From the NCBI RefSeq assembly GCF_913060805.1, contig NZ_CAJXTC010000038.1:1-47993 (forward strand): DNA of 47,993 nucleotides, in the 5' to 3' direction. Below are positions 5,601-20,339 of this stretch, one piece after another; positions within the stretch are counted from its first letter, which is position 1; every line of letters starts with the position of its first letter. A model generated the notes under the pieces. The model was not told the origin of the DNA, ran no database searches, and saw only the letters and a program-made list of their open reading frames with translations. The DNA is from an uncultured Draconibacterium sp. Its GTDB lineage: Bacteria > Bacteroidota > Bacteroidia > Bacteroidales > Prolixibacteraceae. A program made the position numbers and the translations under genes.

Positions 5601-8600
5601 ATGACACTTAGCCGAAGTTTACCTAAAATATTCTTCATTCTATTCGTATTTTTTGCCCTTTCAGTTCCTTTCGAAGGAGAAGCTCAGGAAGTGCCTGAAA
5701 TAGATACAACGGGCACATTGCCCTACCCTTTCAAAGATCAGCCGGCATTTGGATATCCGGAACAGGATTCGTCGAAATTATACCTCAGTAAGCCCAACAA
5801 CATTAAGTACGAAATTGAGTACGACCCGATTACTGGTCAGTACGTTTTTTACGAAAAGGTGGGTTCGTTGAATTATCGTTTGCCACAAAGTATGTCGCTC
5901 AACGATTATTTGGAATACGATTTCGATAAATCGATTCAGGATTACTGGCGATCGAGAACGCAGCAGGAATCGATCGATGCCCGCGGCGGACTGCTCCCGA
6001 AACTAACAATTGGAAGCGAGGCGTTTAACCGTATTTTCGGAGGAAATACCATCAATATTCAGCCGCAGGGTTATGTTGAAGTAAGTTTTGGCTACCAGGT
6101 AAATAAAACCGAAAACCCATCGATTCCCGAACGTTTACGAAAAGTTCCAACTTTCGATTTTGACGAGAAAATTCAGATGAACGTAACCGGCCAGATCGGT
6201 ACAAAAATGAATATGCGGGTGAACTACAACACCGAGGCTACTTTTGATTACGAAAACAAAATGAACCTCGAGTACACCGGCGACGAAGACGAAATACTAC
6301 AACGCATTGAAGCGGGTAATGTGTCGTTACCGCTAAACGGTTCGTTAATAACCGGAGCCTCGAACCTTTTTGGTGTAAAAGCCGAAATGCAGTTTGGGAA
6401 ATTAACAGTTACAACACTTTTCTCGCAACACCGCGGCGAATCGAAAACCGTGGAAACCGAAGGAGGCGCGCAGGTTGCTACTTTCGATATTTCGGCGGCT
6501 AATTACGATGCCAACCGCCACTTTTTCCTGGCACAATATTTCCGCGATCACTACAACGAATGGCTACAAAGCACGGCTATTCCGCGTTCGCCCATCACCA
6601 TTAACAAAGTGGAAGTTTGGGTAACCAACAAATCAAACGATTTTGATGATTCGCGAAACGTTCTGGCTTTTCAGGATTTAGCCGAACACGATCCGCACAT
6701 TTACAACCCGATTCCGCAGTTTCAGCAAAATAACGGGCTGCCTTACCCGCAAAATTTATTCCCGAGCAACCAGGCCAACGGGCTTTACAATGAAATGAAC
6801 ACCACTTACAACAGTGTTCGTCAAGTACAGAACATCACTGGTGTAATGTCACAATTCGGGGACGATTTTAAAGGTGGAACCGACTTTGAAAAAATTGAGC
6901 AGGCACGCAAACTGAACGAATCAGAATTTACCATTAACAAACAGCTGGGATATATCTCGTTAAACAGTGCTTTGAACACGGATGAAGTTTTGGCAGTTGC
7001 CTTCAACTTTACCTACAACGGTCAGACCTTTCAGGTGGGTGAATTCTCAACCGATGGTATCGATGCACCGCAAACGCTGTTCATGAAATTGCTGAAAGGC
7101 ACCAACTTGTCGCCGGGTAAACCAACCTGGAACCTGATGATGAAAAACATTTATAACCTGAATGCCTATCAGTTAACCAGCGACGATTTTGAGTTGAATG
7201 TGGTTTACCAAAACGATTCTACAGGAACTTACATAAACTACCTGCCTGCATCACGAATTCAGGGACATATTCTTTTGGAAGTAATGCGGTTGGACATGCT
7301 CAATTCGCAGCTCGACCCGACAAAAGACGGGGTGTTCGACTATGTTGAAGGCATAACAGTGAACTCCAACACGGGGCGTATCATTTTCCCGGTGGTTGAA
7401 CCATTTGGTAGTCATTTGGCCGATTCCATTCAAAATCCGGCAGACATTGAGCAATACACTTTCCAAACCTTATACGACTCAACGCAGGTAAAAGCCGAGC
7501 AAGATGCCGAGCACAACAAATTCCGACTTACCGGTAGTTACAAAGGCTCGTCAAGTTCCGATATTGCACTGGGAACTTTAAACCTTACGCAAGGTTCGGT
7601 GACCGTTACTGCCGGCGGACAGGTGCTTACCGAAAATGTTGATTATACCGTTGACTACACGCTGGGACGAGTGAAAATTATAAACCAGGCACTGCTCGAA
7701 GCCGGAACTCCGATACAAGTTGCTACCGAAAGCGAGGATCTGTTTACCATGCAGCGCAAAACCTTGATGGGAACGCATGCCAACTATGCTTTCTCCGATA
7801 ATTTCAACATCGGTGCAACAGCCCTTTGGATGAACGAGCGCCCGTTAACGGAAAAAGTGGATTATGGTGAAGATCCGATTTCGAACCTGATGTACGGAAT
7901 GGATGCCCGTTACAACACCGAAGCGCCATTTATTACCAAAGCATTAGACGCGTTGCCGTTTTATAGCACAACCGCCACTTCATCAATTGATGTTGAGGCT
8001 GAATTTGCACAACTGGTTCCGGGAAGTTCAAAATCGATTGACGGAGCTGTTTATGTTGATGATTTTGAGTCGACAAAAACAGCTATCGATATGCGAACCC
8101 GCTCGTCGTGGATGCTGGCAAGTACGCCACAGAACCAAAACGATATGTTTCCGGAGGCCAACCTGAGCAACTCGCTCGAGTACGGTATGAACCGTGCAAA
8201 GTTGGCGTGGTACAATATCGATCCGCTATTCCTGAGAAATAATGCGCTAACGCCCGACCATATTAAAAACGACAGAGATTTACAATCGAACCACCTTGTG
8301 CGCGAGGTGTTCGAACAAGAGATATTCCCGGAACGTGAATTTACTACCGGCGAGCCAACAAACATTGCTGTGCTCGATCTGGCCTTTTATCCGTCAGAAC
8401 GTGGTCCGTACAACTACGACACCGGCAACTCGAATTTAACGGCAGGGATTAACACCGATGGTACCTTGCGCGATCCGGAATCACGTTGGGGTGGTATTAT
8501 GCGCGAAATTCAAACCAGCGACTTTGAAAATGCCAACATTGAATACATCGAATTCTGGATGATGGACCCGTTCGTTAACGACACAATGGGCGACGATTCT

Positions 8601-11600
8601 GGTGGTGACCTGTATTTCAACCTTGGAGAGATTTCGGAAGACGTATTAAAAGACTCGCGAAAATCGTTTGAGAACGGTTTGCCAACCACTGCCGAATTAA
8701 CCAATGTAGACACTACTATTTGGGGACGCGTTTCAACACAACAATCGTTGGTAAATGCATTCGATAACACCATCAGCTCGCGCCAGTACCAGGATATTGG
8801 TTTTGATGGATTGAACGATGACGATGAGCGCACACATTTTGAAATTTACCTGCAGGAATTGCAGCAAAAAGTAAGCGACGATGTGTACCAGCGTGCAATG
8901 AACGACCCGTCGTCGGATAACTTCCACTATTACCGCGGTTCGGATTACGACCAGCAGGAATTAGGAATTTTGGAGCGCTACAAACAATACAACGGCCCCG
9001 ATGGCAACTCGCCAACTTCGGAAATGTCGCCTGAAAGTTATCCAACTTCGGCAACTACTTTACCCGACATTGAAGACATTAACGACGACAATACACTAAA
9101 CGAATACGAACGTTATTTCCAGTACCGTGTAAGTTTGCGAAAAGAAGACATGGAGTTGGGGAACAACTACATTTCGGATGTACGACGTGCTCGCGTTGAG
9201 CTTAAGAATGGTGAAATTGGCGAAGTTGACTGGTACCAGTTTAAGATTCCGGTAAATGCACCGGAGTCGGTAATTGGAGATATCAACGATTTGAACTCGA
9301 TCCGTTTCATGCGTATTTTCATGCATGGTTTTGCCGATCCTACAGTTCTGCGTTTTGCCACACTCGACCTTGTTCGTGCCGATTGGCGTCGTTACACCGG
9401 CGATATTCTGGAAGACGGAGCAATTCCTTCAACAGACGCCAGTTTTGATATTTCGGCCGTTAGTATTGAAGAAAACTCAAGCCGCTCTCCGGTAAACTAC
9501 ATTTTGCCTCCGGGAGTTTCAAGGGTTATCGACCCTGCCAACCCGCAGTTGCGTCAGTTAAACGAGCAGTCGATTGAAATGAAAGTGACTGAGCTGGAAC
9601 AAGGCGACGCACGTGCAGCATACAAATCGTTGTACATGGATTTCAGAAGGTACAAAACCCTGAAAATGGAAGTTCACGCCGAAGAAATTGACGAGTACCC
9701 GCTGGAAGATGACCAACTGTATTTCTTTATTCGTTTGGGATCGGATTATAACTACAACTACTACGAATACGAAGTACCGTTAAAACTTACGCCCGAAGGA
9801 AATTACAATGGCGATATTGAAAGCGACCGCTATATGGTTTGGCCCGACGAAAACCGCCTAAATATTCCGCTCGAGCTGTTTACTAACCTGAAACTGGAGC
9901 GTAACGACGCCATGCGAATGGAAGGCTCGATTATTTCGATGCAGGATATTTATGAAGGTTCGCACAACGGCTGGAACGACGGTAAAAACCGGGTGAAAGT
10001 AAAAGGTAGCCCGAACCTTGGTAATGTGGAAGTAATGATGATGGGGGTTCGCAATAAACGGGGACAAGTAAACACCGGTCCGAAATCGGTTATTGTTTGG
10101 GCCAACGAATTACGCCTTACCGATTTTGACGACGAAGGTGGATGGGCCGCCAACGCACGTGTTTCAACACGTTTGGCCGACCTGGGTAGCGTGGTGGTTG
10201 CCGGACGTAAACGTACTGCCGGTTTCGGGAGCATCGACGAAAATATTAACAGCCGAATGATCGACGACCTGGATGAAATCGATGTGTCGGCATCAATCGA
10301 TTGGGGACGTTTCTTCCCCGAAAGAGCAGGTGTTCGTATTCCAATGTACTATGGCTACTCAAACAGTACGGCAACACCAAAATACGACCCGGTAAATCCG
10401 GATATTGAATTAAAAGAATCGCTGGCTCATGCGCGAACCAGCAGCGAAAAAGACTCGATAAAAAATATATCGCAGGATGTGATTGAGCGAAAAAGCCTCA
10501 ACTTTACCAACGTAAAAGTGGAGCCGCAGCGCCAAAAAGAAAAAACGCATTTGTGGGATCCGGAAAACTTTGCAGTTACCTATTCGTACAACGAAACTTC
10601 GAAACGAAACATTACAACCGAGTACAACGTGAACAGGACGCACCGTGTGATGTTCTCGTACAACTACAGCAACCGTCCGAAATTGATTCAGCCATTTAGC
10701 AAAGTTCAGTTCCTGCAAAAAGGACCTTTGAAACTGATTGGCGACTTTAATTTCTATCCGCTGCCAACGCAGATTTCGTATCGTACCGATTTGTATCGTA
10801 AGTACCACGAGCGTCAGTCACGGAATATCACGAATCCGAACCTGATATTACCGGCTACCTACGATAAAGATTTCCTTTGGAACCGTTACCTCGACATCCG
10901 TTACGATGTTACCCGTTCGTTGAAATTTGATTTCTCATCACGAGGAACTTCGCGAATTGATGAACCCGAAGGCCGGATAAATAAAAACGACGACGACTAC
11001 GAATGGAAGCGCGATTCGATTCTTACCAACCTGTGGAATTTAGGACGACCAACGCTTTACAATCATAGTTTTAATGCCACTTACCAGGTGCCTATCCGAA
11101 GTATTCGTGCATTGAATTTTATGAGTGGTACAGTTCGTTACTCGGGAACTTACGAGTGGGCTGCCGGATCGTTAACCAACGACGATATTAATGTGGGTAA
11201 CATTATTACCAACTCGCGCAACCTTACGCTCACCGGTAACGCCAACTTCCAAACCCTGTTTAACAAGGTGCCCTATTTTAAAGAGGTCGACCAGAAATTC
11301 AGGCGGACAGGACGTGGACGTGGCAGCTTAAACAGCCGGAGTACACGAGGAAGAACGAACCAGCAAGCCGAGCCACTGCAACGAAAACAGGAAGAAACGT
11401 TTAGCAGCAGTGCTAAATTTACAGCCGACCAGGGCCAACAATTTGCCCACAAGCTGAATACTAAAAAAGTAAAAGTTCTGGTAACCGATGTGGATGGTAA
11501 AACTGTTCCGGGCCGTACAAATATCATTGATGCCAATACTATTGAATTTGTTCCAACGGTTGATGTGCAGCAGGCAATGCTTACGGTTACCGGAAAACGC

Positions 11601-13070
11601 GGCGATCAGTCGTTCATGAAAGATATGTTGGATCTGACCACACGAATGGTGATCGGATTCCGTACCTTCTCGGTAAACTACAGTAAAAACGGTGGTACCG
11701 TATTGCCGGGCTTCCTGCCAGAACCAACATTGTTTGGAACTGGCAGATTTAGTGGCGATCCGGATTGGGGAACACAAACACTCGATCCGAAACTGGCTCC
11801 GGGACTTCCGTTCCTGTTTGGATGGCAAGACCGCGACTTTGCAGTGAAAGCGGCAGAAAACGGCTGGCTGACCATCGACTCAACATTGAATCAACCGTTC
11901 CAGATTATGGAAAACGAACGGATTAATTTCCGTGCGCTGTGGGAGCCTCTCCCCGACCTGCGTATTGATTTAACTGCTAACCGTTCGATGTCGAAAAATA
12001 TTACAGAGTTCTACAATTACGATACTAACTCAGGTAGTTTTGTTGCCAACAGCTACTCCGAAAGTGGAAACTTTAGCATGTCGACGTTGACCTTGGGAAC
12101 TGCGTTCTTCAAAATTGGAAAAGAAGAAGTAACCAGCTCCGATGCATTTGAAAACATGAAAGACTACCGCCGCGTAATTGCACATCGTTTGGCGCAACAG
12201 CGTGGTACCAGTGCAGGTTATGATCCGAATGCTCCGAACCAAAACTATCCGGGTTTCCCTGATGGTTACGGGCCGAACTCTGTAGAAGTTCTTGTTCCGG
12301 CATTCCTTGCGGCTTATCAGAATAAAGATCCTCAGGATGTTTCGCTGGGCTTGTTCCCGTCGTTAAAATACATCCGCCCGAACTGGAGTATTCGTTACGA
12401 AGGAATGGTTTCGCGAATTCCGGGACTGAATAAAGTTATGCGTTCGTTGAATTTCCAACATACCTACCGTTCAACTTACAACGTTGGATCGTATTCTACC
12501 AACCTGAATTTTATTGCTGCTGAAGATGGCTACACCATGGTGCGCGACCTGGCAGACAACTTTGTTCCAGCCTACGATTTTAATACCGTAAGTATTGTTG
12601 AGGCTTTCAACCCGCTGATCAATATCGACATCATGTGGTTGAGCGATCTTACTACACGCGGTGAGATTAAACGTGCTCGCAACCTGAACTTGTCGTTATC
12701 GAACAACCAGTTGACCGAGATACTGAGCAACGAATATATTTTAGGATTGGGGTATCGTTTTACGCGAATGGATTTGATCATTAAAACAAAGAATTCGCAA
12801 CAGGCTTACTCGAACGATTTAAATGTTCGTGCCGATATTTCGTACCGTAAAACAAAAACCATTTTGCGCCAGTTGGATGATGCCGCCGACCAGATTACTG
12901 CCGGACAAGGTAACTTTACCTTAAAAACCTATGCCGACTACCGCTTAAGTGATAAGTTTGAAATGCGTGTTTATTACGATCGTATTATTAACGATCCGTT
13001 TACCTCGCTTTCGTACCGTACAACCAATGCGAATTTTGGAGTGAGTTTCCGTTTCACGTTGGCGAACTAA
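5601..13070 (+). CDS. sprA: Cell surface protein SprA, type IX secretion translocon
   Basis: SprA (Sov in Porphyromonas) is the very large outer-membrane beta-barrel through which type IX secretion substrates leave the cell; in gliding Bacteroidota it is also needed for motility. The frame encodes 2489 residues without interruption, close to the roughly 2400 of the Flavobacterium johnsoniae protein. Residues 1-28 are a signal peptide ending in GEA. The rest is rich in Tyr, Asn, Asp and alternating aromatic residues typical of long beta-barrels, and ends in a strand finishing GVSFRFTLAN. A basic segment near 1910-1935 (RRTGRGRGSLNSRSTRGRTN) stands out as a probable loop. Upstream ruvA fits known gene order. 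Cargo proteins with type IX C-terminal signals would lie elsewhere; none is evident here. Confidence 0.95.
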   Translation: MTLSRSLPKIFFILFVFFALSVPFEGEAQEVPEIDTTGTLPYPFKDQPAFGYPEQDSSKLYLSKPNNIKYEIEYDPITGQYVFYEKVGSLNYRLPQSMSLNDYLEYDFDKSIQDYWRSRTQQESIDARGGLLPKLTIGSEAFNRIFGGNTINIQPQGYVEVSFGYQVNKTENPSIPERLRKVPTFDFDEKIQMNVTGQIGTKMNMRVNYNTEATFDYENKMNLEYTGDEDEILQRIEAGNVSLPLNGSLITGASNLFGVKAEMQFGKLTVTTLFSQHRGESKTVETEGGAQVATFDISAANYDANRHFFLAQYFRDHYNEWLQSTAIPRSPITINKVEVWVTNKSNDFDDSRNVLAFQDLAEHDPHIYNPIPQFQQNNGLPYPQNLFPSNQANGLYNEMNTTYNSVRQVQNITGVMSQFGDDFKGGTDFEKIEQARKLNESEFTINKQLGYISLNSALNTDEVLAVAFNFTYNGQTFQVGEFSTDGIDAPQTLFMKLLKGTNLSPGKPTWNLMMKNIYNLNAYQLTSDDFELNVVYQNDSTGTYINYLPASRIQGHILLEVMRLDMLNSQLDPTKDGVFDYVEGITVNSNTGRIIFPVVEPFGSHLADSIQNPADIEQYTFQTLYDSTQVKAEQDAEHNKFRLTGSYKGSSSSDIALGTLNLTQGSVTVTAGGQVLTENVDYTVDYTLGRVKIINQALLEAGTPIQVATESEDLFTMQRKTLMGTHANYAFSDNFNIGATALWMNERPLTEKVDYGEDPISNLMYGMDARYNTEAPFITKALDALPFYSTTATSSIDVEAEFAQLVPGSSKSIDGAVYVDDFESTKTAIDMRTRSSWMLASTPQNQNDMFPEANLSNSLEYGMNRAKLAWYNIDPLFLRNNALTPDHIKNDRDLQSNHLVREVFEQEIFPEREFTTGEPTNIAVLDLAFYPSERGPYNYDTGNSNLTAGINTDGTLRDPESRWGGIMREIQTSDFENANIEYIEFWMMDPFVNDTMGDDSGGDLYFNLGEISEDVLKDSRKSFENGLPTTAELTNVDTTIWGRVSTQQSLVNAFDNTISSRQYQDIGFDGLNDDDERTHFEIYLQELQQKVSDDVYQRAMNDPSSDNFHYYRGSDYDQQELGILERYKQYNGPDGNSPTSEMSPESYPTSATTLPDIEDINDDNTLNEYERYFQYRVSLRKEDMELGNNYISDVRRARVELKNGEIGEVDWYQFKIPVNAPESVIGDINDLNSIRFMRIFMHGFADPTVLRFATLDLVRADWRRYTGDILEDGAIPSTDASFDISAVSIEENSSRSPVNYILPPGVSRVIDPANPQLRQLNEQSIEMKVTELEQGDARAAYKSLYMDFRRYKTLKMEVHAEEIDEYPLEDDQLYFFIRLGSDYNYNYYEYEVPLKLTPEGNYNGDIESDRYMVWPDENRLNIPLELFTNLKLERNDAMRMEGSIISMQDIYEGSHNGWNDGKNRVKVKGSPNLGNVEVMMMGVRNKRGQVNTGPKSVIVWANELRLTDFDDEGGWAANARVSTRLADLGSVVVAGRKRTAGFGSIDENINSRMIDDLDEIDVSASIDWGRFFPERAGVRIPMYYGYSNSTATPKYDPVNPDIELKESLAHARTSSEKDSIKNISQDVIERKSLNFTNVKVEPQRQKEKTHLWDPENFAVTYSYNETSKRNITTEYNVNRTHRVMFSYNYSNRPKLIQPFSKVQFLQKGPLKLIGDFNFYPLPTQISYRTDLYRKYHERQSRNITNPNLILPATYDKDFLWNRYLDIRYDVTRSLKFDFSSRGTSRIDEPEGRINKNDDDYEWKRDSILTNLWNLGRPTLYNHSFNATYQVPIRSIRALNFMSGTVRYSGTYEWAAGSLTNDDINVGNIITNSRNLTLTGNANFQTLFNKVPYFKEVDQKFRRTGRGRGSLNSRSTRGRTNQQAEPLQRKQEETFSSSAKFTADQGQQFAHKLNTKKVKVLVTDVDGKTVPGRTNIIDANTIEFVPTVDVQQAMLTVTGKRGDQSFMKDMLDLTTRMVIGFRTFSVNYSKNGGTVLPGFLPEPTLFGTGRFSGDPDWGTQTLDPKLAPGLPFLFGWQDRDFAVKAAENGWLTIDSTLNQPFQIMENERINFRALWEPLPDLRIDLTANRSMSKNITEFYNYDTNSGSFVANSYSESGNFSMSTLTLGTAFFKIGKEEVTSSDAFENMKDYRRVIAHRLAQQRGTSAGYDPNAPNQNYPGFPDGYGPNSVEVLVPAFLAAYQNKDPQDVSLGLFPSLKYIRPNWSIRYEGMVSRIPGLNKVMRSLNFQHTYRSTYNVGSYSTNLNFIAAEDGYTMVRDLADNFVPAYDFNTVSIVEAFNPLINIDIMWLSDLTTRGEIKRARNLNLSLSNNQLTEILSNEYILGLGYRFTRMDLIIKTKNSQQAYSNDLNVRADISYRKTKTILRQLDDAADQITAGQGNFTLKTYADYRLSDKFEMRVYYDRIINDPFTSLSYRTTNANFGVSFRFTLAN

Positions 13071-13175
13071 TTGTTAAAGCAACTTTATTTGAGAAATAGT
13101 TTTTTGAAGCTTCTATCGACAATATTTTGATATTTCAAAAAAAACGTTTTTCTTGCAGAAGATTAAAATTAAAAA

Positions 13176-13226
13176 ATGCAAAAAATAAATACAATATGGC
13201 TTCCGTGGTGGGGTCTTCTTACGTAA
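13176..13226 (+). CDS. Trp-rich leader peptide 1 of the trp operon
   Basis: A 16-codon frame encoding MQKINTIWLPWWGLLT with Trp at codons 8, 11 and 12, which is a very high Trp content. An A-rich stretch precedes the ATG. The stop codon lies about 45 bases before a strong intrinsic terminator. The first Trp codon is inside the 5' arm of an RNA stem (13192-13202 with 13239-13249). It is read as a sensor: ribosome stalling at the Trp codons when charged tRNA-Trp is scarce would prevent that stem and favour anti-termination. Translation is inferred, not shown. Confidence 0.85.
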   Translation: MQKINTIWLPWWGLLT

Positions 13227-13299
13227 GTTAGGAGTTAAGAGCCATATTGCTATTTTTAAAGATATGACAGGCCTGCTTCTAACAAGAGCAGGTTTTTTT
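13192..13299 (+). promoter_or_regulatory. trp attenuator 1
   Basis: Three pairings are visible. Stem 1:2 joins CAATATGGCTT (13192-13202) to its complement at 13239-13249 and overlaps the first Trp codon. A candidate antiterminator joins GTTAGGAG (13227-13234), just after the leader stop codon, to CTTCTAAC (13276-13283). The terminator pairs CCTGCTT (13272-13278) with GAGCAGG (13286-13292), followed by seven T. The antiterminator and terminator share bases 13276-13278, so they exclude each other. A ribosome finishing the leader would cover 13227-13234 and allow termination. Pairings are read by eye, without energy calculations. Confidence 0.8.
13272..13299 (+). terminator. Attenuator 1 terminator
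   Basis: A 7-bp GC-rich stem (CCTGCTT with GAGCAGG, one T-G pair) with a 7-nt loop and seven consecutive T. It sits 20 bases before the second leader peptide and about 210 bases before trpE, so it can only act as an upstream attenuator. Confidence 0.88.
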
Positions 13300-13318
13300 G
13301 TTTAATAGAAAAATAATT

Positions 13319-13375
13319 ATGAGAACAAACAATAACATTTGGTGGTGGCGTAGCAACTTTTTACAAATATCGTGA
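13319..13375 (+). CDS. Trp-rich leader peptide 2 of the trp operon
   Basis: An 18-codon frame encoding MRTNNNIWWWRSNFLQIS with three consecutive Trp codons at positions 8-10. As in leader 1, the first Trp is codon 8 and follows Ile, which suggests a duplicated and diverged control element. It starts 20 bases after the T run of the first terminator and is followed by its own terminator at 13402-13438, before trpE. The Trp codons can pair with 13384-13394. Translation is inferred. Confidence 0.87.
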   Translation: MRTNNNIWWWRSNFLQIS

Positions 13376-13438
13376 AGAGAGGATACGTCATTGCATAAAT
13401 TAAAAGCGGCTCATCGGATTTCACGGTGAGCCGTTTTT
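13342..13438 (+). promoter_or_regulatory. trp attenuator 2
   Basis: A candidate stem joins 13342-13352, which contains Trp codons 9 and 10, to 13384-13394 (11 pairs, several G-U). A candidate antiterminator joins the leader stop-codon region 13368-13377 to 13419-13428 in the terminator loop and 3' arm. The terminator stem is CGGCTCA (13407-13413) with TGAGCCG (13427-13433). The logic matches attenuator 1: stalling at Trp leaves the stop-codon region free to break the terminator, while complete translation masks it. Pairings were found by eye. Confidence 0.75.
13402..13438 (+). terminator. Attenuator 2 terminator, 70 bases before trpE
   Basis: A perfect 7-bp GC-rich stem, CGGCTCA with TGAGCCG, extendable by AAAAG with TTTTT on the outside and TCG with CGG on the inside, followed by a T run (13434-13438). 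It is the last structure before trpE. Confidence 0.87.
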
Positions 13439-13508: not shown

Positions 13509-14918
13509 ATGGAAAAACTCAATTTTAAACCAGTCGTTCGTAAAATACTTGCCGACACCGTAACTCCGGTAAGCATTTATTTACGACTTCGCACGCTTTA
13601 TCCAAAGTCGATATTGCTGGAAAGTTCCGATTACCACGGAGTTGAAAATGCCTACTCATTTATTGCTTTTAACCCGATCGCCAATTTTAAAGTCACAAAC
13701 GGCGAGGTTGGCATCGATTTGCCGGGCAGAGAGAAAGAAAATTTCAGTCTTTCTCCCGAAAAGAAGTTGCACGATGAGCTGGACAATTTCTTTAAAACAT
13801 TTAATGTTGATTCGGACGAGATTGAATTGCCGGCCAACGGTTTATTTGGCTACCTGAATTTCGATGCCATTCAACATTTCGAAAGCATTCGTTTTTCATC
13901 GCCAAAAACCGAAGAATACCAAACACCGGAAGTACACTACAGTTTTTATAAATATGTAGTAGCCATCGATCACCACAAAAACCAGATCCACATTGTAGAA
14001 AATTTGCTGGAAGGCGAAGAATCGCAAATGGATTACGTGCATCATTTATTGGTGAATCTGAACTTTTCAACCGCAAGTTTCGATGTACGTGGCGAAGAGA
14101 AATCGAATATCACCGACGAAGAATACATGCACATGGTTACTAAAGGAAAAGAGCACTGCTACCGTGGTGATGTTTTCCAAATCGTACTGAGCCGCCAGTT
14201 CTCGCAGGAATTTGTTGGCGACGATTTTAATGTTTACCGCGCACTTCGTTCGATAAATCCATCGCCATATCTTTTCTATTTTGATTACGGAACTTACAGT
14301 ATTTTCGGATCGAGTCCGGAGGCTGAAATCAGGATAAAAGACAATAAAGCTTATATTCATCCAATTGCCGGAACATTTAAACGAACCGGAAATGATGACC
14401 AGGATCGCGAACTTGCAGAGAAATTGAGCAAAGATCCAAAAGAGAATGCCGAGCACGTGATGTTGGTAGATCTTGCCCGTAACGATTTAAGTAGAAACGC
14501 CGACAATGTAATTGTTGAAACTTACCGCGAGGTACAGTTCTTCTCGCATGTAATTCACCTGGTTTCGCAGGTTTCAGGGGAAATTACCGACGATACCAAC
14601 CTGATAAAAGTACTGGGTGAAACTTTCCCGGCCGGAACACTTTCGGGGGCACCTAAGTATAAAGCAATGGAACTGATCGACAAATACGAAAACCAGAACC
14701 GTGGTTACTACGGTGGTTGTATTGGTTATCTTGGTTTTGATAATTCGGTAAACCATGCGATTATGATCCGCTCGTTTTTGAGCAAAGACAAAAAACTGTT
14801 TTACCAGGCGGGTGCCGGAATTGTTGCAGACTCGCAGGAAGAGAGTGAATTACAGGAAGTGAATAACAAACTGGCCGCATTGAAAAATGCGATTGAAATG
14901 GCTAAAGGAATAAGTTAA
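13509..14918 (+). CDS. trpE: Anthranilate synthase component I
   Basis: Makes anthranilate from chorismate using ammonia delivered by TrpG, the first committed step to tryptophan. The protein is 469 residues. Near the N-terminus it has LLES (36-39), the classical tryptophan-binding feedback motif, and later NPSPYLFYF, which contributes to the same site, so it is probably inhibited by tryptophan. Catalytic-domain landmarks include HPIAGTFKRTG, DLARNDLSR, FPAGTLSGAPK and YYGGCIGYLG. It is the first structural gene after two attenuators. A repeat (14924-14996) fills the gap to trpG. Cytosolic. Confidence 0.97.
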   Translation: MEKLNFKPVVRKILADTVTPVSIYLRLRTLYPKSILLESSDYHGVENAYSFIAFNPIANFKVTNGEVGIDLPGREKENFSLSPEKKLHDELDNFFKTFNVDSDEIELPANGLFGYLNFDAIQHFESIRFSSPKTEEYQTPEVHYSFYKYVVAIDHHKNQIHIVENLLEGEESQMDYVHHLLVNLNFSTASFDVRGEEKSNITDEEYMHMVTKGKEHCYRGDVFQIVLSRQFSQEFVGDDFNVYRALRSINPSPYLFYFDYGTYSIFGSSPEAEIRIKDNKAYIHPIAGTFKRTGNDDQDRELAEKLSKDPKENAEHVMLVDLARNDLSRNADNVIVETYREVQFFSHVIHLVSQVSGEITDDTNLIKVLGETFPAGTLSGAPKYKAMELIDKYENQNRGYYGGCIGYLGFDNSVNHAIMIRSFLSKDKKLFYQAGAGIVADSQEESELQEVNNKLAALKNAIEMAKGIS

Positions 14919-14923
14919 CCAAC

Positions 14924-14996
14924 TGTCATTTCGACGAGGAACGAGGAGAAATCTTTGACTTCAAAAGACAGTCTTCTCACTTTGTTCGAAATGACA
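14924..14996. repeat. Interspersed palindromic repeat, copy 1 (trpE-trpG spacer)
   Basis: A 73-bp element with terminal inverted repeats TGTCATTTCGA (14924-14934) and TCGAAATGACA (14986-14996) around an inner GAGAAATCTTTG segment. A related, partly decayed copy lies at 17519-17597. Elements with these TGTCATTTCGAC...GAAATGACA ends are common between genes in Bacteroidota. It could fold as a long hairpin in the trp mRNA. Confidence 0.8.
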
Positions 14997-15013
14997 ACTA
15001 ATTTGAAAAAAAA

Positions 15014-15589
15014 ATGAAGATATTAGTTATCGATAATTACGACTCATTTACCTACAACCTGGTACATGCCATAAAAAAGATTTCCGGCCAGCCGGTTGAT
15101 GTGTTTCGCAACGACCAGATTGCCTTGGAAGAGATTGACAAATACGACAAGATCGTTCTTTCTCCGGGCCCCGGAATTCCTGAAGAGGCAGGTCTTTTAC
15201 TCGACATTATAAAAGCATACGCTCCAAAGAAAAGTATGCTGGGAGTTTGTTTGGGCCATCAAGCCATTGGCGAAGCTTTTGGTGGTAGTCTGCACAATAT
15301 GAACCGTGTTTTGCATGGAATTGCTACACCCGTAAAACAAACCGGAATTAAAGCCCAATTATTTGAAGGTTTGCCCGAATCATTTGATGTGGGTCGTTAC
15401 CACTCGTGGATAGTTCAGGACGAGCAATTACCCGAATGTTTTGAAGTAACCAGTTATGATGAAGACGGATTGGTAATGTCAATGCAGCACAAAGAATACG
15501 ATGTACAAAGTGTGCAGTTCCACCCCGAATCGGTACTTACTCCGCTGGGCGAAAAAATGATCGAGAACTGGTTGTATCCAAACAAATAG
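15014..15589 (+). CDS. trpG: Anthranilate synthase component II, glutamine amidotransferase
   Basis: Hydrolyses glutamine and passes ammonia to TrpE. At 191 residues it is a single class I amidotransferase domain. It has the oxyanion motif SPGPGIPEEAG, the nucleophile Cys79 in GVCLGHQ, and His170 and Glu172 in QFHPES, completing the triad. MKILVIDNYDSFTYN is the standard TrpG/PabA N-terminus. Some bacteria share this subunit with PABA synthase; here its position between trpE and trpD points to tryptophan synthesis first. It is separate from TrpE rather than fused. Confidence 0.96.
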   Translation: MKILVIDNYDSFTYNLVHAIKKISGQPVDVFRNDQIALEEIDKYDKIVLSPGPGIPEEAGLLLDIIKAYAPKKSMLGVCLGHQAIGEAFGGSLHNMNRVLHGIATPVKQTGIKAQLFEGLPESFDVGRYHSWIVQDEQLPECFEVTSYDEDGLVMSMQHKEYDVQSVQFHPESVLTPLGEKMIENWLYPNK

Positions 15590-15718
15590 TTAATCAAATT
15601 CAAAAAACTCAACTGCTTAAAAAAATGAAACGAGCATAGTTAGAAGCCTTTTTAGGACACTGAAGAACGCCTATGCGAGTTACATGAGTTACCATAAAAA
15701 ATAAACAATATTAAACGA

Positions 15719-16714
15719 ATGAAAGAAACATTACAATACCTTTTTGAAGGAAACACCCTCACCCGCGAAGAAGCAAAAGCGGCCTTAACCGGCGTTGGAA
15801 AAGGCCTGTATTCGGAAGCTGAATTTGCCGCATTTCTAACCGTTTTTAAAATGCGTCCGTTGCAGTCGGAAGAATTGGGAGGCTTTCGCGATGCCATGGT
15901 GGAACTCAGTAAAAAAGTTGATCTCTCGGATTACAATGCAATTGATATTGTGGGTACCGGCGGCGATGGCAAAAACACTTTCAACATCTCCACACTATCC
16001 TGTTTTATTGTTGCAGGAGCAGGTGTAAATGTCACCAAACATGGTAATTATGCTGCCACTTCAACCAGCGGTTCGTCGAACGTTTTGGAATTTCTGGGAT
16101 ACAAATTCAGCAATGAGATCGACAAATTAAAAAGCGACCTCGAAAAAGGAGGATTCTGCTTTTTACATGCTCCGCTATTCCATCCGGCAATGAAACACAT
16201 TGCTCCGGTGCGACGGGCATTAAAAGTGCCAACCTTCTTTAATATTCTTGGGCCGATGATCAATCCGTCGGAACCCAAATACCAGGTGCTTGGCGTTAAC
16301 AACAGTTTAAATTTCGAGCACTACAAGAACGTGTACAAAACAATGGATGTTAACTTTGCCATTGTAAACAGTGTTGATGGTTACGACGAGATTTCGCTGA
16401 CTGCCGACACACACTTTGCCACACAATCGGAAGACAAACTGGTGTCTCCATCAGAATTTGGATTGCCACAGATTGCTCCTGAAAAACTTTTTGGTGGCGA
16501 ATCGGTGGAAGACGCCGCTAAAATATTTATCGATGTTCTGAAAGGCAATGGTACTACAGAGCAAACCAATGTTGTTCTTGCCAATGCGGCTGTTGCATTG
16601 CAGGTTGTTTTTTCGGAAAAAACATTAACGGAATGTGTTGAAATGGCACGCGAATCTTTACTCAGCGGAAATGCGTTGAAAAAGTTGGAAGCAGTAACTA
16701 ACAAGTCCTTTTAA
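15719..16714 (+). CDS. trpD: Anthranilate phosphoribosyltransferase
   Basis: Transfers phosphoribosyl from PRPP to anthranilate. The 331-residue protein shows the PRPP-binding motif GTGGDGKNTFNIST near 80-93 and, about 20 residues later, KHGNYAATSTSGSSNVLE. The usual KHGNR has Tyr in place of Arg; from memory this variant is familiar in Bacteroidota. No TrpG fusion is present, unlike E. coli TrpD. A 129-base spacer without clear features separates it from trpG; trpC follows 20 bases later. Cytosolic. Confidence 0.95.
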   Translation: MKETLQYLFEGNTLTREEAKAALTGVGKGLYSEAEFAAFLTVFKMRPLQSEELGGFRDAMVELSKKVDLSDYNAIDIVGTGGDGKNTFNISTLSCFIVAGAGVNVTKHGNYAATSTSGSSNVLEFLGYKFSNEIDKLKSDLEKGGFCFLHAPLFHPAMKHIAPVRRALKVPTFFNILGPMINPSEPKYQVLGVNNSLNFEHYKNVYKTMDVNFAIVNSVDGYDEISLTADTHFATQSEDKLVSPSEFGLPQIAPEKLFGGESVEDAAKIFIDVLKGNGTTEQTNVVLANAAVALQVVFSEKTLTECVEMARESLLSGNALKKLEAVTNKSF

Positions 16715-16734
16715 GGCCGAGCAAATAATAGACA

Positions 16735-17517
16735 ATGAATATTCTTGATAAAATAGTAGCAACAAAAAAACAAGAAGTAGCTGCCCAGAAAAAAGAAGTT
16801 AGCGTTGAGCAGTTGGTGAACTATCCGGCTTTTGCAAGAAAATGCAACTCGCTAAAAGAAAACCTGCTGAAAGAAGGTGTTTCCGGTATTATTGCAGAAT
16901 TCAAGCAAAAATCACCTTCAAAAGGAGAGATCAATTTTTCGGCAAAAGTGGAAGAAGTTACCAAAGCTTACAATGCTGCGGGTGCTTCGTGTCTTTCGGT
17001 TCTTACAGATTTTGAATACTTTGGCGGAACATTAGCCAACCTGGCGAAAGCACGTGAAGCCAATCCCGATATCCCGATTTTGCGTAAAGATTTTATGATC
17101 GACACCTACCAGATTGTGGAAGCCAAAGCTTTTGGTGCAGATGTGATTCTTTTAATAGCGGCATGTCTTTCGAAAGAAAAGGCGCTGGAACTAGCAAAAA
17201 AATCAAAAGAACTGGGATTGGATGTTTTAATGGAAATCCACAATGCTGAAGAACTGGAGGTCGTAAACGACTACGTTGATGTTGTTGGGGTAAACAACCG
17301 CAACCTGAAAACTTTTGAGGTGAGCGTTGAAACTTCGGTGGAGCTTTCGAAACTTATTCCGGCCAGATTTGTAAAAATATCGGAAAGTGGGTTGGCAGGA
17401 GCTGCCGAGATCAAATATTTGAAAGAGCATGGTTTTAAAGGCTTCCTGATTGGTGAGACCTTTATGAAAACGGATGATCCGGGTGCGGCTTGTAAAAAGT
17501 TAATTGATGAATTATAA
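16735..17517 (+). CDS. trpC: Indole-3-glycerol phosphate synthase
   Basis: Closes the indole ring by decarboxylating and dehydrating CdRP. The 260-residue (beta/alpha)8 protein has the hallmark EFKQKSPSKG (catalytic Lys region), LRKDFMID with the second catalytic Lys, GVNNRNLKTF and SESGL. It is monofunctional, with TrpF encoded separately downstream, unlike the fused E. coli enzyme. It begins 20 bases after trpD and is followed directly by a palindromic repeat that occupies most of the spacer to trpF. Confidence 0.96.
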   Translation: MNILDKIVATKKQEVAAQKKEVSVEQLVNYPAFARKCNSLKENLLKEGVSGIIAEFKQKSPSKGEINFSAKVEEVTKAYNAAGASCLSVLTDFEYFGGTLANLAKAREANPDIPILRKDFMIDTYQIVEAKAFGADVILLIAACLSKEKALELAKKSKELGLDVLMEIHNAEELEVVNDYVDVVGVNNRNLKTFEVSVETSVELSKLIPARFVKISESGLAGAAEIKYLKEHGFKGFLIGETFMKTDDPGAACKKLIDEL

Positions 17518-17518
17518 A

Positions 17519-17597
17519 TGTCATTTCGACGAAGAATGAGGAGAAATCTTTTGCTTCGAAGCTCAAATGTTACAGATTTCTCTCTGCGTTCGAAATA
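17519..17597. repeat. Interspersed palindromic repeat, copy 2 (trpC-trpF spacer)
   Basis: Starts one base after the trpC stop with TGTCATTTCGACGAAGAATG, closely matching copy 1. Inner arms GAGAAATCT (17541-17549) and AGATTTCTC (17574-17582) pair perfectly. The right end has decayed from CGAAATGACA to CGAAATAAAA. Same family as 14924-14996. Confidence 0.8.
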
Positions 17598-17613
17598 AAA
17601 GAAATGGAACGTG

Positions 17614-18243
17614 ATGACAAAAAATCTAAAAATAAAAGTGTGCGGGATGAAATTCACCCAAAACCGGGAGCAGGTGGAGGCACTTGGAGTCGATCTACTG
17701 GGCTATATTTTTTACGGCCCATCAAAACGATTTGTTGGTGACACACCAGATTCCGGACTCTTTCAATCTGATAAACCCAAGGTGGGTGTTTTTGTAAACG
17801 AGAATGCTTTTGAAATTCTTGGTTTGGCTAAAAACTTTGGTTTCGAATACATTCAATTACACGGCAAGGAAAATCCGAAAACCTGTGGATTGTTAAAAAA
17901 CCAGGGGCTGCGTGTTTTAAAAGCCTTCCCAATAGATGATGATTTTAAATTTGCGACAACAGCGGCTTTTGAGGGACATGTGGATTATTTTTTATTCGAT
18001 ACCAAAACCAAACAACATGGTGGTTCGGGTAAAAAATTCAACTGGCAGATCCTGGAAAACTACACCGGGAATACGCCCTTTTTCCTGAGTGGAGGAATTG
18101 GCCCTGATGATGCAGCAGAGATAAAAGAATTAAATCATCCGATGCTTGCCGGAGTAGACCTGAACAGTGGTTTCGAAGACGACCCCGGATTAAAAAACAT
18201 TGAAAAACTAAAACATTTTATTGCGCAATTAAAGGCAGAATAG
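17614..18243 (+). CDS. trpF: Phosphoribosylanthranilate isomerase
   Basis: Isomerises PRA to CdRP, the step between TrpD and TrpC. About 209 residues from the ATG at 17614; a GTG directly before it (17611) is the alternative start. Motifs are KVCGMK with the catalytic Cys near the N-terminus, GYIFYGPSKRFVG, the catalytic Asp in FDTKTKQHGGSGKKFNW, and the phosphate loop LSGGIGPDDA. It is a stand-alone (beta/alpha)8 enzyme. trpB follows after 29 bases. Confidence 0.95.
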   Translation: MTKNLKIKVCGMKFTQNREQVEALGVDLLGYIFYGPSKRFVGDTPDSGLFQSDKPKVGVFVNENAFEILGLAKNFGFEYIQLHGKENPKTCGLLKNQGLRVLKAFPIDDDFKFATTAAFEGHVDYFLFDTKTKQHGGSGKKFNWQILENYTGNTPFFLSGGIGPDDAAEIKELNHPMLAGVDLNSGFEDDPGLKNIEKLKHFIAQLKAE

Positions 18244-18272
18244 ATGCTGATTGCGCCAAAGCAATAAAGATT

Positions 18273-19454
18273 ATGAAATATCAAGTAGACGAAAAAGGAT
18301 ATTACGGCGAATTTGGCGGGGCATGGATCCCCGAAATGATGTTCACCAATATTGATGAACTCAAGCGCCGTTACCTGGAAATTATAGAATCAGAAGCATT
18401 CAAAAAAGAATTTGATCAACTGTTAAAAGATTATGTGGGGCGTCCGTCACCGCTGTATTATGCCAGCCGCCTGTCGGAGCATTACGGCAGCAAAATCTAC
18501 CTGAAACGGGAAGATTTGAATCACACGGGATCGCACAAACTAAATAACACCATCGGACAAATTCTGTTGGCACAGCAGCTGGGAAAAACTCGCATTATTG
18601 CCGAAACAGGTGCAGGCCAGCACGGTGTGGCAACAGCAACAGTTTGCGCACTAAAAGGCATTAAATGTATCGTTTACATGGGAGCGCTGGATGTTTCACG
18701 CCAGGCACCTAACGTGAAAAAGATGAAGATGCTTGGAGCTGAAGTAATTCCGGTTCACAGTGGTAATAAAACATTAAAAGACGCCACCAACGAAGCTATG
18801 CGCGACTGGATCAACAATCCGGAAGATACACACTACATTATTGGCTCGGTGGTTGGGCCGCACCCCTACCCTGATATGGTTGCACGTTTCCAATCAGTCA
18901 TCAGTGCCGAGATGAAAAAGCAATTGCTAGAACAAACAGGCTCCGAATTTCCAACACGAATTTTGGCATGTGTTGGCGGAGGAAGTAACGCCGCCGGCGC
19001 TTTTTATCATTATCTTGATGATGAGCAGGTGGAACTGATCGGTGTAGAAGCTGCCGGAAAAGGAGTCGACACCGATGAAACTGCAGCTACCTTAACGGTT
19101 GGAACTCCCGGCGTATTACACTCGAGCAGAACTGTGTTAATGCAGAATGAAGACGGGCAAATTACCGAACCGTATTCAATTTCTGCAGGATTGGATTACC
19201 CGGGAATCGGTCCATTGCATGCGCACCTTTTTAAAACAGGTCGTGCGAAGTTTTTGGCTGCTACCGACGAGGAGGTATTACAAGCCGTGCTGCTTTTAAC
19301 ACAAAAAGAAGGTATTATTCCTGCACTCGAATCGGCTCACGCACTTGCCGCGCTGGATAAAATAAAAATGAATCCTGACGATGTGAATGTGATTAACCTT
19401 TCGGGTAGCGGAAACAAGGATATGGAAACCTACCTGAATTATTTTGGATACTAA
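18273..19454 (+). CDS. trpB: Tryptophan synthase beta chain
   Basis: PLP enzyme that condenses indole with serine to give tryptophan. The 393-residue protein starts with the typical YGEFGGAWIPE. Lys89 in HTGSHKLNN is the PLP Schiff-base lysine. GAGQHGVATA, the phosphate-binding GGGSNAAG and the late LSGSGNKDM are all present. This is the standard TrpB1 type that pairs with TrpA, and trpA follows. The 102-base gap to trpA holds a degenerate repeat. Confidence 0.97.
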   Translation: MKYQVDEKGYYGEFGGAWIPEMMFTNIDELKRRYLEIIESEAFKKEFDQLLKDYVGRPSPLYYASRLSEHYGSKIYLKREDLNHTGSHKLNNTIGQILLAQQLGKTRIIAETGAGQHGVATATVCALKGIKCIVYMGALDVSRQAPNVKKMKMLGAEVIPVHSGNKTLKDATNEAMRDWINNPEDTHYIIGSVVGPHPYPDMVARFQSVISAEMKKQLLEQTGSEFPTRILACVGGGSNAAGAFYHYLDDEQVELIGVEAAGKGVDTDETAATLTVGTPGVLHSSRTVLMQNEDGQITEPYSISAGLDYPGIGPLHAHLFKTGRAKFLAATDEEVLQAVLLLTQKEGIIPALESAHALAALDKIKMNPDDVNVINLSGSGNKDMETYLNYFGY

Positions 19455-19460
19455 AAAAAC

Positions 19461-19540
19461 GAACACTGATAACACAGATTTAAATGATCTCCACAGATAA
19501 TAATCAACGAAAATCTTCAAAATCAGCGTCACCTGCGTTC
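19461..19540. repeat. Degenerate repeat in trpB-trpA spacer
   Basis: Contains iterated words of the type ACACAGATTTAAA, CCACAGATAATAATC and AATCAGCGTCACCTGCGTT. They resemble widespread intergenic repeats built on CACAGAT and ATCTGCG units. No clean palindrome remains. The call is by resemblance only. Confidence 0.4.
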
Positions 19541-19556
19541 TATTAAAACTATTATC

Positions 19557-20339
19557 ATGAACAACAGAATCAATCAACTTTTCGAAAGAAAAAAAGAAAA
19601 CATACTCTCGGTATATTTTACTGCCGGGTTCCCCAACCTGAACGATACCGTTGAAATTATTCAGCAGCTGGAAAAAAATGGCGTCGACCTCATAGAAATT
19701 GGAATGCCTTTTTCCGATCCTACTGCCGACGGGCCAACCATTCAACGCACCAGCGAAATTGCCTTAAAAAATGGCATGTCACTCAAAGTGCTTTTCGAGC
19801 AATTAAAAACCATTCGCGAATCGGTTTCTATCCCGCTGGTTTTAATGGGCTACCTGAATCCGGTTTATCAATACGGCGTAGAGAAATTCTGCCAGAAGTG
19901 TAATGAAATTGGCATTGACGGCACGATCCTGCCCGACCTTCCGTTGGATGAATTTGAAGCAGAATACAAAACTATTTTCGAGCAGAACAACCTGCATAAT
20001 ATTCTGCTGATTACGCCACAAACGTCGGAAGCACGAATTCGCCAGATCGACGATGCCAGTGAAGGATTTATTTACATGGTTTCATCGTCGTCGACAACCG
20101 GTGCCGGCAAAAAAGTGGAAGATTTCCATGCCGACTATTTTGAACGCATTCAGGCCATGAACCTAAAAAATCCACGCCTCATCGGATTTGGAATTTCGGA
20201 CAATGCCACTTTTACGAATGCTTGTAAGTATGCCAGCGGAGCTATTATCGGAAGTGCCTTTGTAAGCTCATTCAGCGAGAAGGCAAAAATTGCCGATTCG
20301 GTTGCACAATTTGTTAAGAACATGCTTAATCCTGCTTAA
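19557..20339 (+). CDS. trpA: Tryptophan synthase alpha chain
   Basis: Splits indole-3-glycerol phosphate into indole and glyceraldehyde 3-phosphate; indole tunnels to TrpB. In this 260-residue (beta/alpha)8 protein, Glu47 and Asp58 in EIGMPFSDPTADGP are the catalytic acids. VSSSSTTGAG forms the phosphate loop and GFGISD is the late conserved motif. It is the last gene of the trp operon. A 9-bp inverted repeat lies 29 bases after the stop. Confidence 0.96.
   Translation: MNNRINQLFERKKENILSVYFTAGFPNLNDTVEIIQQLEKNGVDLIEIGMPFSDPTADGPTIQRTSEIALKNGMSLKVLFEQLKTIRESVSIPLVLMGYLNPVYQYGVEKFCQKCNEIGIDGTILPDLPLDEFEAEYKTIFEQNNLHNILLITPQTSEARIRQIDDASEGFIYMVSSSSTTGAGKKVEDFHADYFERIQAMNLKNPRLIGFGISDNATFTNACKYASGAIIGSAFVSSFSEKAKIADSVAQFVKNMLNPA

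Follow-up and report, generated by a model that had tools for sequence, protein, structure and literature searches.

Serial tryptophan leader units and a conserved RNA core upstream of trpE in the Prolixibacteraceae

Can a trp operon of the Bacteroidota carry two attenuators in series, and is attenuation all that its leader encodes? The locus that raises this question lies in the genome of an uncultured Draconibacterium sp. (Bacteroidota; Prolixibacteraceae), within a stretch of 47,993 nt that was analyzed as a whole (contig NZ_CAJXTC010000038.1, positions 1 to 47,993; hereafter, the window). Two tryptophan-rich leader units are flanked by sprA (5601-13070) and trpEGDCFBA (13509-20339), the genes downstream of the leader being matches to trpE, trpG, trpD, trpC, trpF, trpB, and trpA models. 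Among named relatives, those closest in TrpE sequence are Draconibacterium mangrovi, D. sediminis, and D. orientale (98-99% identity). We consider it likely that this leader contains two serial transcription attenuators, and that the first of them holds a core under nucleotide-level selection beyond that exerted through its peptide and its terminator.

Two leader units in the Draconibacterium window

The features of the leader are as follows.

13124..13158, + strand: Bacteroidota-type promoter-like element pair (TTTTG ... TTTTCTTG), about 40 nt 5' of the first UGG block
13176..13226, + strand: leader ORF L1, MQKINTIWLPWWGLLT and stop (sequence; comparison across the family)
13187..13255, + strand: conserved RNA core, consisting of P1, UGGUGGGG, and P2
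13187-13201 with 13240-13255, + strand: helix P1 of the core (predicted pairing)
13206-13213, + strand: UGGUGGGG of the core, conserved bases between the two helices
13215-13222 with 13227-13234, + strand: helix P2 of the core (predicted pairing)
13227..13234, + strand: GUUAGGAG, both the 3' strand of P2 and the T1 antiterminator strand; can pair with 13276-13283 (computed)
13269..13299, + strand: predicted intrinsic terminator T1, AGGCCTGCTTCTAACAAGAGCAGG plus T7 (terminator scan, hairpin search)
13276..13283, + strand: CUUCUAAC, 5' side of T1 and partner of 13227-13234 (computed)
13319..13375, + strand: leader ORF L2, MRTNNNIWWWRSNFLQIS and stop (sequence)
13369..13376, + strand: AUCGUGAA across the L2 stop, the T2 antiterminator strand (read by eye)
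13403..13438, + strand: predicted intrinsic terminator T2, AAAGCGGCTCATCGGATTTCACGGTGAGCCG plus TTTTT
13420..13427, + strand: UUCACGGU in the T2 loop and 3' side, possible partner of 13369-13376 (by eye only)
13509..14918, + strand: trpE, first gene of trpEGDCFBA (model match)

The original prediction had proposed two Trp-rich short frames upstream of trpE, each followed by its own hairpin with a T run and each provided with a competing antiterminator. These parts are present: the frames at exactly 13176-13226 and 13319-13375, the hairpins at 13269-13299 and 13403-13438, and both antiterminators, the L1/T1 pairing being computed and the L2/T2 pairing read by eye. There are six ATG-started ORFs of 8-40 codons with at least three Trp codons on the two strands of the window, and only L1 and L2 have a terminator-like hairpin within 75 nt. 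T2 is absent from the terminator-scan output that lists T1, probably because its first T's were counted into the stem.

As expected of leader-peptide attenuators, L1 and L2 both place codons for the regulated amino acid before the operon, and each ORF has a terminator and an antiterminator, although the T2 pairing loses in folding. Folds were computed with a masked ribosome of standard footprint size; these are equilibrium folds and a poor model of folding during transcription. With the ribosome at the second Trp pair, the L1 antiterminator is the minimum fold, and with the ribosome at the L1 stop, the minimum fold is T1. With the ribosome at the first Trp codon, T1 forms as well and the L1 antiterminator does not. 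The L2 antiterminator is never the minimum, and T2 stays the minimum in both ribosome states tried.

The promoter-like pair is putative and was assigned from what we take to be the Bacteroidota promoter consensus. A similar pair was seen by eye at about the same place in most rows printed, with or without T1, and a simple promoter score often chose places other than 13124..13158.

Transcription would start about 15 nt 5' of L1, and both leader units are probably on one transcript. When Trp-tRNA is scarce, a ribosome held at UGG UGG would leave GUUAGGAG available for pairing with the T1 5' side, and T1 would not form; a ribosome reaching the L1 stop would cover GUUAGGAG, and T1 would form. A polymerase that has passed T1 would then meet an ordinary Bacteroidota-type L2 and T2, where the decision would be repeated. 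We infer ribosome stalling, this order of events, the shared transcript, and an effect on trp expression. Serial attenuators might also multiply repression, as had been proposed.

The tandem pair across the family

We collected 140 genomes of the family, with a trpE match in 127. Upstream DNA was read for 125, leaving out G079 and G123 (partial trpE matches). A search pattern found the L1 core in 95 of these 125; seven of the 30 core-negative genomes (G014, G022, G026, G053, G054, G070, and G086) have less than 420 nt upstream. The exact core pattern also occurs in 95 of all 140 genomes, a set that shares 89 members with the upstream-read 95 and adds G008, G132, G014, G022, G059, and G097. The core thus lies in the DNA read 5' of trpE in 89 of 95 pattern-bearing genomes. 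It lies about 1 kb upstream of trpE, beyond a gene insertion, in two more (G008 and G132), and the remaining four have their match on a contig without a listed trpE match. Second matches to the core pattern were noted at G014:C509, G093:C298, and G094:C40.

In a draw of 393 genomes from the order, the exact pattern gave four matches: three of the five family members drawn, including the window's own genome, and a chance coding match in G209. An RNA covariance model run on 295 genomes of the class found only the window's genome, although its filters were strict enough to miss weak matches. The viral contigs searched did not contain the 20-nt core. By these searches, the core was found in one family only, and before trpE wherever neighboring DNA was read.

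At least 300 nt of upstream DNA was available for 122 of the 125 genomes, and one or more Trp leaders with a hairpin occur in 110 of them. The 12 others are G053 and G054 (short contigs), G115 (leader starting with GTG), G101, and eight genomes of group g3 (L198-L205), where two scans revealed no Trp leader and terminator unit 5' of trpE.

T1, that is, a hairpin and T run behind the core, is present in 78 of the 95 core-bearing genomes (T1+), with predicted energies of -5.8 to -25.3 kcal/mol. The other 17 are T1-less. These 17 were first picked out by eye, and the assignment was then tested against distances and a hairpin search: core and L2 are separated by at least 86 nt in the 76 T1+ genomes with L2 placed, and by 44-51 nt in the 16 T1-less genomes with L2 placed. 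The pattern missed the L2 position of G073, G082, and G084, and G073 was judged by eye. A second leader and terminator unit follows the core in 77/78 T1+ and 17/17 T1-less genomes, so that the predicted series of two units is kept in 77 of the 95. The remaining T1+ genome, G084 (L225/L183), has L1 and T1 and several changes in P1, and its L2/T2 unit was not found by the scan.

A simple scan of named trpE loci gave a similar picture. There were 77 loci with at least 300 nt upstream (3 of 80 were dropped for short upstream DNA): all 43 without the core have one unit, and of 34 with the core, 31 have two units and three have one. Two serial units are the usual state in core-bearing family members and were not seen in the 43 core-less loci.

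The reading frame of L1 is kept together with T1. A Trp-frame AUG lies within 11 codons, with no stop between, in 78/78 T1+ and 0/17 T1-less genomes; T1 and the in-frame AUG are thus jointly present or jointly absent in all 95 core-bearing genomes. Neither of the other two frames has an AUG there in the T1+ genomes (0/78 and 0/78), where the nearest AUG is 21, 24, or 30 nt from the first UGG, always a multiple of three. The UGG blocks are 6 or 3 nt apart in 78/78 T1+ genomes, whereas two of the 17 T1-less genomes have frame-breaking gaps of 8 and 2 nt. The L1 stop falls 2-19 nt 5' of the P1 3' strand in 78/78 T1+ genomes, just where a classical attenuator requires it, and past that strand in 8/17 T1-less genomes. 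Start, frame, and stop of L1 are therefore kept in 78/78 T1+ genomes, and the AUG is missing in 17/17 T1-less ones. None of the 78 T1+ genomes keeps the terminator without the Trp codons. L1 looks to be translated where T1 is present, judging from these patterns.

Over 29 codons upstream in the 17 T1-less genomes, a single ATG, GTG, or TTG was reached ahead of any stop: a TTG in G076, 10 codons upstream in the Trp frame. In G100 (L230/L185), an AUG inside P1 sets UGGUGG in the L2 frame, so that one fused leader with six Trp codons runs through the core into L2. The leader could be translated in both of these T1-less genomes. Separately, an AUG inside P1 (around 13195 in the window) was seen by eye to open a frame MASVVGSS... 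in type A cores; this frame has no Trp codons and no conserved length, and its AUG accompanies the core.

The competing pairing also follows T1 between clades. In genus groups with a different T1 (the GGCUUACC type, g9 and g17), the region-2 strand differs too. Strands of a clade paired better with their own T1 arms than with those of one foreign clade: -13.6 versus -9.3 (g9 arms), -14.2 versus -10.1, and -17.8 versus -10.3 kcal/mol. Type A strands reached -12.2 with g17 arms, a fairly good fit. Between genera, the own arm was better in 64-98% of swaps, less clearly so for near genera and by statistics that ignore relatedness. Comparison at the level of sequence shows that the parts exist and are conserved jointly, that frame, start, and stop are kept, and that a predicted competing pairing is re-created in clades with other T1s.

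Conservation of the first leader as RNA

The conserved block inside L1 is AAUACAAUAUGGCUUCCGUGGUGGGG. We find that the L1 core is conserved at the nucleotide level, third codon positions included. Within the genus, the probability that two genomes use the same codon is 0.992 for L1 (n = 32), 0.812 for L2 (n = 35), and 0.547 for the first 33 codons of trpE (n = 35); the corresponding probabilities across six genus groups are 0.965, 0.816, and 0.493. Selection of the leader peptide for its amino acids, on the model of TnaC-like arrest, was rejected as the main cause: third positions are equally conserved, and the core persists without a start.

In 12 T1-less genomes of type A (g2, g7, g15, and g21), the 32-nt 5' strand of the core is 99% identical and the 16-nt 3' strand 100% identical, whereas identity is only 46-52% in the 5' leader, in the P2 loop, and in the spacer before L2. 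The P2 hairpin is in the minimum fold of all 52 distinct loop sequences, 16 of them T1-less, and by eye its stem is kept in T1-less genomes with partly different bases. Some P2 hairpins are weak (G114, -0.6; G045, -1.2 kcal/mol), and shuffle P values range from 0.003 to 0.395. All six cores tested fold stably (z -2.3 to -3.5).

Covariation within the stems had been suggested as a check. In P1, pairs are kept in 95.0% of cases versus 94.6% in shuffles, and two pairs changed on both sides versus 1.1 expected; with so little variation in P1, covariation is not shown. These counts come from 24 type A rows only (alignment A2), the g9 and g17 rows being misplaced in A1; the model-made alignment A3 was left out because it includes antisense hits to P1, which is palindromic.

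In a phylogeny of 57 TrpE proteins, which is the tree of one gene and not of the species, a minimum of three changes is required for the T1-less state, and groups g4, g5, g18, g19, and g20, which have no core, fall with the outgroup. Whether T1 was lost or gained repeatedly, the core was retained without it. Because the core persists where both the peptide and T1 are absent, we conclude from these sequences that it is under nucleotide-level selection explained by neither. The original interpretation as Trp leader units agrees with the units in series and the kept L1 frame, start, and stop, but it missed the constraint on L1 as an RNA sequence and the 17 of 95 core-bearing genomes that keep the core with neither T1 nor an in-frame AUG.

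A conserved downstream partner for UGGUGGGG was not found: the search used returned none for 67 of the 95 genomes, and where partners were printed for other genomes, their positions were scattered. Nor was an expression platform found for the core in T1-less genomes.

Divergent first leaders occur in group g23, where most members have an L1 that departs from the strict core. L131/L250 (G137, g23) has a WWW-type first leader (UGGUGGUGGCC), and a T1-like hairpin is still there.

Known leaders and readings of the core

At its cutoffs, Rfam gives no match to the window's trp leader. The Escherichia coli type of trp attenuator (RF00513, Trp_leader) shares the logic of Trp codons, antiterminator, and terminator and matches L1/T1 weakly (23.7 bits; cutoff, 41). 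It consists of one unit, unlike the leader in the window, and we know of no RNA core there that outlives the peptide. Bacteroid-trp (RF01692), which Rfam names as a Trp peptide leader of Bacteroidetes, shows AUG, UGGuGGUG, and a long stem in its printed consensus, and it scores 53 bits (cutoff, 49) on the single leader of a relative, G117 (L189). That locus alone among 20 family loci, and none of 10 named loci, reaches the cutoff. The L1 of the window scores 27.8 bits, below the cutoff, and its L2 gives no match; UGGUGGGG is absent from the RF01692 consensus, and no tandem form is seen in the RF01692 material consulted. Bacteroid-trp is an already known Trp leader of the Bacteroidota (PMC2864571).

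Several other systems can be compared. The Salmonella mgtCBR leader has two leader ORFs with attenuators, which sense different signals, ATP and proline (PMC3641672), whereas both leaders of the window are Trp-rich. Tandem T-box riboswitches precede trp genes, with three before the Streptococcus macedonicus trp operon, and likewise sense one amino acid more than once in series (PMC12452182); they belong to another phylum, and the window has no T-box match. The trpB motif (RF04312) is a riboswitch candidate with a terminator and with its antiterminator in the right shoulder of P1, for which its authors leave classic attenuation possible (PMC11109978). It is known from Firmicutes and Fusobacteria, and its best match in the family loci is 30.1 bits against a cutoff of 59. 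Two tryptophan riboswitches have been varied in laboratory circuits (PMC11126579), and another study reports none predicted in alpha-proteobacteria (PMC2245857). The open literature, mostly without subscription papers, yielded neither a tandem leader-peptide attenuator for one amino acid nor a description of this RNA core. That the core represents a new class of RNA is a real possibility.

Most likely, L1/T1 is a leader-peptide attenuator superimposed on an RNA element that has a function of its own, as an aptamer or a protein site. That is, the core would most likely be a structured RNA recognized by a ligand or a protein, to which a leader ORF and terminator were added, or with which they were kept, in most lineages. 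A more specific version can be offered tentatively: the core may be an undescribed cis-regulatory RNA that responds on its own to tryptophan, to a pathway compound, or to a regulator, fused with a leader-peptide attenuator in most core-bearing Prolixibacteraceae, such that a single hairpin would sense a ligand as well as Trp-tRNA charging ahead of the second attenuator. If serial attenuators for one amino acid are real, they would be a familiar switch stacked to widen or sharpen the response, and the family supplies natural single and double versions for comparison. The core hairpin is kept without a start codon or terminator of its own in at least two parts of the TrpE tree. These T1-less cores are a clean way to ask whether an attenuator has grown on, or is hiding, a ligand- or protein-sensing RNA.

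Could the core be a riboswitch aptamer, with tryptophan or a compound of its pathway as ligand? The ligand would then stabilize P1 and P2 so that T1 forms, and in T1-less genomes it would act on access to L2. Invariant bases between two helices, the stable folds of all six cores tested, and the position upstream of trpE agree with an aptamer, as does the use of the P2 3' strand (in g9 and g17, also the P1 3' strand) as antiterminator. The restriction to one family and the lack of any route found to L2 in T1-less lineages speak against it, and we regard this function as possible but somewhat doubtful. Recognition by a protein, either of the RNA or of a DNA operator beside the promoter, would account for the strict sequence conservation, the inverted repeat, and the position soon after the promoter-like element. 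The kept P2 stem and the separation of the arms by about 40 nt favor RNA over the DNA form; overall, a protein site is a doubtful candidate.

Alternatively, L1 might be a classical leader-peptide attenuator and nothing more, the overlap of Trp codons, P1, P2, and antiterminator conserving the core and the T1-less cores being relics. Coding and pairing demands do share bases in the 78 T1+ genomes, and the joint presence or absence of T1 and in-frame AUG in 95/95 would follow. A relic, however, should not retain core strands at 99-100% identity beside a loop, leader, and spacer near 50% (12 T1-less genomes, four genus groups), nor a P2 stem kept with partly other bases, and no conserved downstream partner of UGGUGGGG was found by the search used. 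We find this explanation unlikely. Direct, T-box-like binding of tRNA-Trp is highly improbable: T-boxes bind tRNA without translation, and the core has three UGG triplets, of which UGGC could in principle pair with the GCCA acceptor end, but the genome's tRNA-Trp ranks only 6th to 12th of 14 tRNAs in predicted pairing with core pieces, and neither window nor leader has an Rfam T-box match, so membership among T-box riboswitches was rejected.

In L051 and L052 (G132 and G008, respectively), two ORFs are inserted between T1 and L2, the second frame being interrupted in L052; they resemble what is presumably an MNT/HEPN (mntA-hepT type) toxin-antitoxin pair. Short stretches in group g16 resemble a remnant of the same ORF pair. 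In L003, L006, L117, and L151, C- and G-rich stretches (CCTCCCC and GGGGAGG like) were seen by eye to extend the gap between T2 and trpE, as if a small repeat family had inserted there.
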